64,000 nt of DNA from Mycolicibacterium fallax (GTDB taxonomy: Bacteria > Actinomycetota > Actinomycetes > Mycobacteriales > Mycobacteriaceae): contig NZ_AP022603.1 in assembly GCF_010726955.1 (NCBI RefSeq), positions 2,790,001-2,854,000 on the forward strand, written 5' to 3'. The notes below the pieces were generated by a model. It was not told where the DNA came from. It did no database searches and saw nothing but the letters and a program-made list of their open reading frames with translations. This document shows positions 58,393 through 61,392 of this stretch, piece after piece. The position numbers were made by a program, and so were the translations under genes. Position 1 is the stretch's first letter, and every line of letters starts with the position of its first letter.

Positions 58393-58974
58393 TCAGTCGA
58401 CGAGGATGACGACCCGTCGTGCCGGCTCAACGCCCTCGCTCTCGCTGTGCACCCCGTCAACGACGGCGACCGCGTCGTGAACGATCTTCCGCTCGAACGG
58501 CGTCATCGGAGCGAGCCGCTCACGCTCGCCGGTTTCCAGCACCCGACGCGCCAGCTTATCGCCCAGCGCCGCCAGCTCCTCACGCCGACGACGGCGCCAC
58601 CCGGCGATGTCGAGCATCAGCCGACTGCGCTCACCGGTCTTCTGATGCACCGCCAGCCGGGTGAGCTCCTGCAGGGCGTCGAGCACCTCACCCTTGCGGC
58701 CCACCAGCTTGCCCAAGTCCTCGCCGCCGTCGATGCTGACGACGGCGCGGCTGCCCTCGACGTCCAGATCGATGTCGCCGTCGAAGTCCAGCAGGTCCAG
58801 CAGCTCCTCCAGGTAGTCCCCGGCGATCTCACCCTCGGCGACCAGACGATCCTCGGGATCGCTCCCGGAATCCTCGGCCGTCTCCGCGGCGTCGTCCACC
58901 CCGCCGTCTTCCATCCCGGCGTCTTCCGCCGCGGATTCCTCGATCTCGAGTTCGCTCTGCTCGGTATCCATCAC
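58393..58974 (-). CDS. jag: Jag/KhpB RNA-binding protein
   Basis: A 193-residue protein. An acidic N-terminal region of about 75 residues (Glu/Asp-rich) precedes a KH domain (about 85-135, DLGKLVGRKGEVLDALQELTRL) and an R3H domain (about 140-190, RRREELAALGDKLARRV). It binds RNA and is usually encoded after yidC. It lies 32 bp after yidC on the same strand. Confidence 0.93.
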   Translation of the reverse strand: MMDTEQSELEIEESAAEDAGMEDGGVDDAAETAEDSGSDPEDRLVAEGEIAGDYLEELLDLLDFDGDIDLDVEGSRAVVSIDGGEDLGKLVGRKGEVLDALQELTRLAVHQKTGERSRLMLDIAGWRRRRREELAALGDKLARRVLETGERERLAPMTPFERKIVHDAVAVVDGVHSESEGVEPARRVVILVD

Positions 58975-59006: not shown

Positions 59007-61079
59007 TCAGCCCCTCTTCTTGGTGCCCTTGGCGGGCCCGCCGCGGCGGCCTCCGGCCCGTTTTCCACCCCGCTGGCCCTGCGGGCCGCGGGCGTTCGCA
59101 GCACCCTTACCCGCAGCACCTTTGCCCGCGGTGCCCTTTCCGGCACTGCTCGGTTCGGTCGCGGCGGCAGCCTCGATCGCAGCGACCGGCTCCGGCGCGG
59201 CCTCCAGCGCCGGGACGTCGTCCTCGGCGAACAGGTTCGTCGACGCCTCGGCGGACGCCCGGATCCCGGCGTCGCGAACCTGCGCGGACACCTCCTCGGT
59301 GCTGTCGCCGAGGTACAGGTTGGCGACCTGCTGCAGCGCGGCCTCGTACAGCCGGCGCAGCGTCTTGGCGGCCTCGCTGTCCTCACCGAGTTCGCGGGCC
59401 GCCTCGGCGGCCAGCTCACGCAGCTTCGACACCCCGCGGCCGGCCTCCTCGGCCCGCTGACGGCTGGCGGCGCGGTCACGCATCCGGCCCTTGCCCCGGC
59501 CGGCCGCCGCGATCATCAGCAACCGGGCATGTACCAGCGCACCGCCCGGCCGGTATCCACCGGGCAGCACAATGCCGCCCGGGGCGTCCTCATCCGGCCA
59601 GCCGCCGACGGCGTCCCAGACCTCCAGCGCGCGGCGGGCCTGCGCGGCCGCCGCATCGTTGCGGCCCATCCGGTGCAGCGCGGCCGCGGCCTGCAGGTGG
59701 ATCCGGAACCGCAGATCCTGATCGAGATCGGCGTAGTTCCGATCCCACAGCGCCAACAGGGCCTCGTCGTCGGTGACCCGCTGGGAGACCTTTTCCCACT
59801 CCCCCAGTCGGTAGGCGGCGTCGATCTCCACCGCGCGCATCTCGACGAAGCCGGCCAGATCTTCCCGGCCCGGGTCCTGGTCGAGGACTTCCTTGATCAT
59901 CGGGGTGGCGCGCTCGGAGGCGTAGAGCCGGCGCTGATTGACCTCGACGCGGCCGGTGTCGGCCAGTTCCGGCCGCTCACAGAGCCAGTCGGCGACCTCC
60001 GCGGCCAACCCGCCGGGACGCTGATCGCCGCCGGCGGTGCGCAGGCGGTTCTTGTCCAGATAGGTGATGACCCGCTCCGCAGTATCCAGCCCCTGCTTCT
60101 TCTGGCCGCTGTCGTACTGACTGACCGCCTTGCGGAACTCCGCGAGCGGATCCATCTTCGCCGGCACAGTGATCGGCTTCTGCCCCGGCCGCGGCGCGTT
60201 GGCCTTGGTGGCGGCCTTCTTCCGCTCCAGCGCCTCGGCCTCTTCGTGCTCGATCTTGCCGAAGACGTAGTGCTGCTGGCCGAACGTCCAGATGTTGTTG
60301 GAGAACCAGTACAGAATGATGGCCAGCGGCAGGAACGGCCCGCCGACGACGACGCCGAGCGGGAACACGTACAGCGCGAGCTTGTTCATCATCGCGGTCT
60401 GCGGGTTCGCCGCCGCCTCCGGGCTCTGGCGCTCCACCGACGCTCGGCTGTTGAAGTAGGTCGCGATGCCCGCGGCGATCATGATCGGCACACCGACGGC
60501 GATCACCGCGCCGCGGCTGAAGACCTCGAAGGCCTCCAAGCCGGAGGTCTGGATCATCGTGCCGCCCAGCGGTGCGCCGAACAGATTCGCGCTGAGGAAG
60601 TTGCGGACATCCTCGGCGGAGAAGAAGTAGTTCGCCGTGTTGGCGTTGTCCTCGACGGTCAACTTGGTCAGACCAAAACCACCGACAGTCCGGTTGAAGG
60701 ACCGCAGCACGTGGAACAGACCGATGAACACCGGCACCTGCGCCAGCATCGGCAGACAGCCCAGCAGCGGGTTGAAGTTGTGTTCGCGCTGGAGCTTCTG
60801 CATCTCCTGCGCCATCTTCTGGCGGTCCTTGCCGTACTTCTTCTGCAGCGCCTTGATCTGCGGTTGCAGCTCCTGCATCTGCCGGGTCGTCCGGATCTGC
60901 TTGACGAACGGCTTGTAGAGCAGCGCGCGCAGGGTGAACACCAGGAACATCACCGACAATGCCCAGGCGAAGAAGTTCGTCGGCCCGAGCAGGAAGCCGA
61001 ACAACTTGTACCAGAGCCACATGATCCCCGACACCGGGTAATACACGTAGTCCAGGCTGAACCAGTTGAAATTAGACAT
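59007..61079 (-). CDS. yidC: Membrane insertase YidC with a long C-terminal extension
   Basis: A 690-residue protein, nearly twice the length of M. tuberculosis YidC (366). Residues 1-300 are the normal insertase: an N-terminal segment, the first membrane helix (about 36-54), the coiled cytoplasmic loop (60-100), and the segments near 104-125, 190-210 and 235-265. The usual end [23 protein letters not shown] is present. It then continues with about 340 residues of soluble, mostly helical sequence, partly TPR-like ([27 protein letters not shown]). The last 45 residues are a Gly/Lys/Arg-rich tail that could touch ribosomes. The ATG at 61079 matches the family start. Confidence 0.95.
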
Positions 61080-61392
61080 GGAACTCGTTCCTGTCGTCGA
61101 GACCCCGACGACTCTCTGGGACCGCAACCGCGGGCTCAGGGATCGGATCCCATCCGCCGCGATGCCATGGACCGCACTTGGCCAGACGGATCGCCGTCAA
61201 CCAGGTGCCGCGAAACAATCCGTGCGCAACCAACGCCTCCACCGCGTAGCTGCTACAGGTCGGGGTGAACCGACAGGTCGGCAGCCGCATCGGAGAGATC
61301 ATGTGCCGATACAGTTCGATCAGATAGACCAGCACGCACACCGCCAGGCCCGGTCGGGCCGGCGCCGCATCCTCGTCCTGCCGATTCGTCAT
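61072..61392 (-). CDS. yidD: Membrane protein insertion efficiency factor YidD
   Basis: A 106-residue YidD. The family core is intact: [28 protein letters not shown], with the conserved cysteines, and [22 protein letters not shown]. It helps YidC insert proteins at the membrane. It overlaps rnpA by 4 bp upstream and yidC by 8 bp downstream. Confidence 0.95.

Follow-up and report, generated by a model that had tools for sequence, protein, structure and literature searches.

The stretch of DNA analysed here, referred to as the window, comprises 64,000 nucleotides of the Mycolicibacterium fallax genome (contig NZ_AP022603.1, positions 2,790,001 to 2,854,000). Near its end lies yidC, the gene for the membrane insertase YidC, whose reading frame (59007-61079, minus strand) runs for 690 residues without an internal stop and fuses a mycobacterial insertase core to a long soluble extension and a basic C-terminus. 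The gene and its parts are:

59007..61079, minus strand: yidC, complete frame of 690 amino acids (75.4 kDa) with an ATG start (MSNFNWF), stop included
60174..61079, minus strand: insertase core, residues 1-302, with four transmembrane-like stretches and similarity to YidC of the related genome G199
59160..60173, minus strand: soluble extension, residues 303-640, species-restricted within the samples searched, isoelectric point (pI) 5.0 (computed for residues 302-640), predicted to be mostly helical
59010..59159, minus strand: basic C-terminal tail, residues 641-690, lacking the PGA[RK]P[KR][KR]RK[RS]-like end listed for most relatives
60153..60155, minus strand: internal ATG at residue 309 (MDPLAEF), which may be a former or additional start, with no well-spaced Shine-Dalgarno sequence detected by eye in the preceding 30 bases

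The protein carries the core domain that defines the YidC/Oxa1/Alb3 insertase family. With the first Met uncounted, the NCBIfam YidC profile PRK03449.1 matches residues 7-325 (552.8 bits, cutoff 276) and Pfam 60KD_IMP (PF02096) matches residues 38-271 (160.4 bits, cutoff 35). A simple hydropathy scan finds four transmembrane-like stretches in the core, which is 84% identical to G199 YidC over query residues 1-287. The start of the G199 protein aligns with the ATG start given above; a mechanical frame list offers an alternative upstream TTG start that would give 706 amino acids. NAPRPGQKP closes the core at residue 302 (Met counted), which fits the end near residue 301 proposed in an earlier, sequence-only reading of this DNA. 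Just before this motif, at 60201-60248, the segment is rewritten relative to the KEEEAKKQEALERRAA-like form of most relatives listed, so that the change starts upstream of the insertion.

No transmembrane-like stretch follows residue 301 (maximum 19-residue Kyte-Doolittle mean 0.93), and the extension is predicted to be soluble and mostly helical. The end of the protein is strongly basic (residues 626-690: pI 11.4, 13 K/R versus 4 D/E). G+C content at third codon positions stays between 0.81 and 0.97 along the gene in 80-codon windows. With neighbouring genes as the reference, mean log codon preference reaches -0.67 in the core and -0.80 in residues 302-640 when these are read in frame. The two other forward readings of the extension score -1.60 and -1.73, its antisense frames score -1.11, -1.15 and -1.90, and random codons average -1.86. 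Codon preference and third-position composition together thus give good support to the conclusion that the extension is coding in the yidC frame; four other frames across the insert gave no Pfam match at E 1. The host genome is a single contig of 4,156,821 bases, and a database protein, P0001 (690 amino acids, cluster of six members), differs from the window YidC at residues 33 and 35 only. Since P0001 is not identical, we infer that it comes from a second assembly, and a full-length, non-identical counterpart together with the single contig makes an assembly error unlikely. The soluble extension of about 340 residues that the sequence-only reading had described ahead of a basic tail is thus borne out, coordinates included.

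No other relative examined has it. Across 198 genomes of the genus (here and below the host's own is included in such counts), the core as query finds a match in all 198 and the extension in two. The second of these, in G183 (E 8e-4), lies in a frame that we take, from its letters and a motif, to be haloacid-dehalogenase-like; we judge it to be another kind of protein matched by chance. An apparent match at locus L035 reaching residue 390 was likewise set aside: YidC there has 384 amino acids and an ordinary tail. YidC frames listed in 149 other genus genomes span 359-464 codons (median 401), and nine further genomes have 354-460 codons, except G007, where the frame is split between contigs; the remaining 39 of the 198 fall outside this count. 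Tails, counted from the NN[IV]W motif as far as the stop, have 89-210 residues (median 110) at 107 of 112 loci, some of which repeat species, whereas that of the window protein has 430, confirming the unusual length noted earlier; the five loci left out are two of the host's own, one chance locus and two lacking the motif. A domain shared by a clade, which the sequence-only reading had named as support, was not found.

Relatedness was judged by RsmG, because a tree of YidC cores, while placing the window protein within the mycobacterial rows, puts it on a long end branch (1.13, median 0.073) with no starred group. That tree has 108 rows, with loci L105 and L106 removed for want of the end motif and no Oxa2 sequence included. 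The long branch may mean that the core evolved more rapidly as the extension was gained. By RsmG, G199 is nearest at 70% identity, the other rows listed reaching at most 67%; by the core alone it is not the closest, G080 being 87% identical. G199 YidC has 368 residues and an ordinary tail. In the window 1369 nucleotides separate the DNA block conserved in YidC from that conserved in Jag, compared with 392 in G199 (977 less). The simplest history is that the extension was gained on this lineage, as its loss in all the others would need many events. In the RsmG comparison, G087, G089, G111, G157 and others show one or two TGA stops within the matched stretch despite long frames, probably reflecting alignment across start regions. 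G079 gave two equal-scoring RsmG matches and three YidC core matches in one assembly, possibly from overlap at contig ends.

The neighbourhood of yidC is that of a mycobacterial chromosome, in which yidD lies upstream of yidC, and jag, rsmG, parA and parB downstream. These names (yidD, jag, rsmG, parA and parB) are presumptive, assigned by recognition; for yidD, jag, rsmG and rnpA we obtained alignments with the relatives' loci. The immediate neighbours are:

61072..61392, minus strand: yidD, directly upstream and overlapping the yidC start; relatives' loci align
58393..58974, minus strand: jag (KhpB-like), directly downstream of yidC; relatives' loci align

The origin of the extension was sought widely. 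Searches of the protein collection returned P0001 alone or nothing, but score only the roughly 8000 candidates sharing most five-residue words, and a diverged relative could therefore be missed. Plasmids and phages gave no match, none of 21 pattern matches in viral contigs is related to the extension, and the host genome has no paralogue (next match E 5.5). At the level of the order, six of 200 genomes match at E 0.01; the alignments in the five other than the host cover 29-83 residues, and their number is about what chance would give over 200 genomes. Among these, L149 in G360, a frame that we take to be sucrase/ferredoxin-like, has a VLPxGY...QRA stretch whose two blocks agree in order and spacing with the GGIVLPGGY...RQRA region of the extension; the match is at chance level for a search of that size and was dropped. 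A phylum search found two of 246 genomes at E 0.001, the other being G520, with a tetratricopeptide repeat (TPR) protein. At the DNA level 190 of the 198 genus genomes match; the listed matches outside the host are shorter than 80 bases, and there is no plausible donor among them. A sequence search of solved structures gave no match at E 10, and NCBIfam a single chance-level row (E 0.71). The genus, order and phylum samples thus hold no convincing DNA or protein relative of the extension.

The sequence-only reading had also described part of the extension as TPR-like. Two single-sequence models predict helical hairpins (mean predicted local distance difference test, pLDDT, 51-55), and two stretches stand out:

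60054..60143, minus strand: predicted helical hairpin, residues 313-342, the only stretch with a 10-residue-block mean pLDDT of at least 70 in both models
59610..59705, minus strand: best TPR-like stretch, residues 459-490, matched by Pfam TPR_12 below its cutoff

The TPR_12 match scores 15.7 bits (E 0.018) on the isolated extension and 12.3 bits on the full protein, against a cutoff of 30.1, and no TPR profile match to the extension reaches its curated cutoff. A scan with a 34-residue TPR signature was not significant: the sum of the top five was reached in 177 of 2000 shuffles (51 for the extension, 44 for its reverse). Comparison of the extension with itself by BLASTP detected no internal sequence repeat. 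The G520 match has an E value of 5e-4 for one genome, and its BLASTP score was reached by none of 500 shuffles. Foldseek returned 180 rows for a 205-residue model, with no significant E or Z; about 38 of the best 50 are TPR proteins, 22 of these being chains of a single protein, MamA. The match list for a 331-residue model was mixed. Taken together, these profile and model comparisons only suggest TPR-like repeats: a weak resemblance stands, in TPR_12 and G520, while the profile cutoff and the signature scan do not bear it out.

Set beside known systems, the protein resembles mycobacterial YidC in core sequence, in the NAPxPGxKP core end and in the yidD-yidC-jag-rsmG neighbourhood, and departs from it in having 338 additional residues, and other sequence in place of the low-complexity tail and PGA[RK]P..RKR-like end that are usual there. 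M. tuberculosis YidC, Rv3921c, has 366 amino acids and is reported to have five transmembrane segments (PMC4863248). A soluble C-terminal domain is known elsewhere in the family: Oxa2 of plants and green algae has a C-terminal TPR domain (PMC2706819, PMC5855863), and a 2018 review describes Oxa2 as the only known family members with TPR, speculating on chaperone or substrate binding and leaving the role open (PMC5855863). The layout of Oxa2a and Oxa2b, a YidC/Oxa1/Alb3 core followed by a soluble, putative helical-repeat C-terminal domain on the matrix or cytosolic side, is like that of the window protein, which differs in being bacterial, in coming from the single YidC gene detected in its genome and in having no significant TPR profile match. 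The likeness is one of layout (338 residues here; predicted TPR span 361-508 in rice) and, if real, represents convergence. Identity to G199, the PRK03449.1 match and the tree position mark the core as mycobacterial, and these comparisons place the protein in the YidC family and not with Oxa2, though it may work like an Oxa2. For the wider family, the earlier remark that no YidC of this architecture is known to have been described is therefore too strong. Searches among open-access papers turned up no such C-terminal domain on a bacterial YidC (the available part of PMC10502375 contains nothing on one). The basic C-terminal tails of YidC, Oxa1 and Alb3 bind ribosomes (PMC8733628); the window YidC also ends basic, but whereas those tails are short and largely unstructured or coiled-coil, here an acidic helical domain intervenes.

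Our preferred reading, held tentatively and with somewhat less than even confidence, is that a recent, lineage-specific in-frame fusion gave the genome's sole detected YidC a tethered docking domain. After the split from the nearest sampled relative, about 1 kilobase of coding DNA would have been placed in frame after NAPxPGxKP, between the core and the basic C-terminus, where the low-complexity tail usually lies. This would yield a membrane insertase carrying an acidic, mostly helical domain of about 37 kDa, possibly a TPR-like alpha-solenoid. By the established topology of YidC the C-terminus is cytosolic, and the domain would be positioned next to the insertion groove and close to where chains leave the ribosome. 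There it would most likely act as a docking platform, keeping a nascent client, chaperone or ribosome factor close to the site of insertion, and the basic end would preserve the electrostatic contact with the ribosome that characterises YidC/Oxa1/Alb3 tails. We favour docking because of the cytosolic position of the C-terminus, the known ribosome-binding basic tails and the basic end that persists beyond the insertion.

An extension that occurs in one species only, lacks a paralogue in its own genome, has only low-confidence structure models and finds no convincing homologue among collected proteins, plasmids, phages, viral contigs or genomes of the genus might instead be a functionless passenger, an orphan or newly open stretch that was fused by chance and is tolerated because, in the cytosol, it stays clear of the insertase groove. 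We consider this unlikely, though a serious contender: the stretch is open and codon-adapted throughout, an ordered hairpin is predicted at residues 313-342, and the window YidC and P0001 are identical across the extension while differing twice in the core, a protein-level comparison that has no bearing on selection. That the extension is an assembly or frameshift artefact is very improbable. The sequence-only reading had associated that outcome with relatives ending near the core, and the relatives examined do lack the extension, yet the single-contig genome, the frame-specific codon preference and P0001, which carries the same extension without being identical, all speak against it.

There is a small chance that two products are made, with initiation at ATG-309, or proteolysis, yielding a separate soluble protein of about 382 residues besides or instead of the fusion, its ancestor being a gene between yidC and jag. 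The ATG lies near the junction, and an inserted gene would fit the site: about 60 nucleotides separate the frames of yidC and jag in G199, leaving no gene between them. No well-spaced ribosome-binding sequence is visible before this ATG, however, and the extension found no standalone homologue among the roughly 8000 candidates scored. The basic C-terminal end and the ribosome binding of such ends in YidC/Oxa1/Alb3 (PMC8733628) would also suit an extension serving mainly as a long spacer, holding the tail out towards ribosome or membrane, with no specific protein partner; this seems quite improbable, as a helical domain of 338 residues exceeds what a spacer needs and the tail itself is unlike the relatives' usual end.

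A single YidC was detected in this genome, and YidC is reported to be essential in M. tuberculosis (PMC4863248), so that the gain of an entire soluble domain has altered central machinery of membrane biogenesis in this lineage. It is conceivable, though on balance doubtful, that this bacterium has independently evolved an Oxa2-like insertase with its own recently acquired cytosolic helical-repeat receptor domain, the nearest sampled genome showing the ancestral form; in that case the essential insertase would choose or retain clients, chaperones or ribosomes by itself. With the states before (G199) and after (the host genome) present in related species, the contribution of a receptor domain would be directly testable, and a convergent bacterial case would help with the open role of the TPR domain of plant Oxa2.
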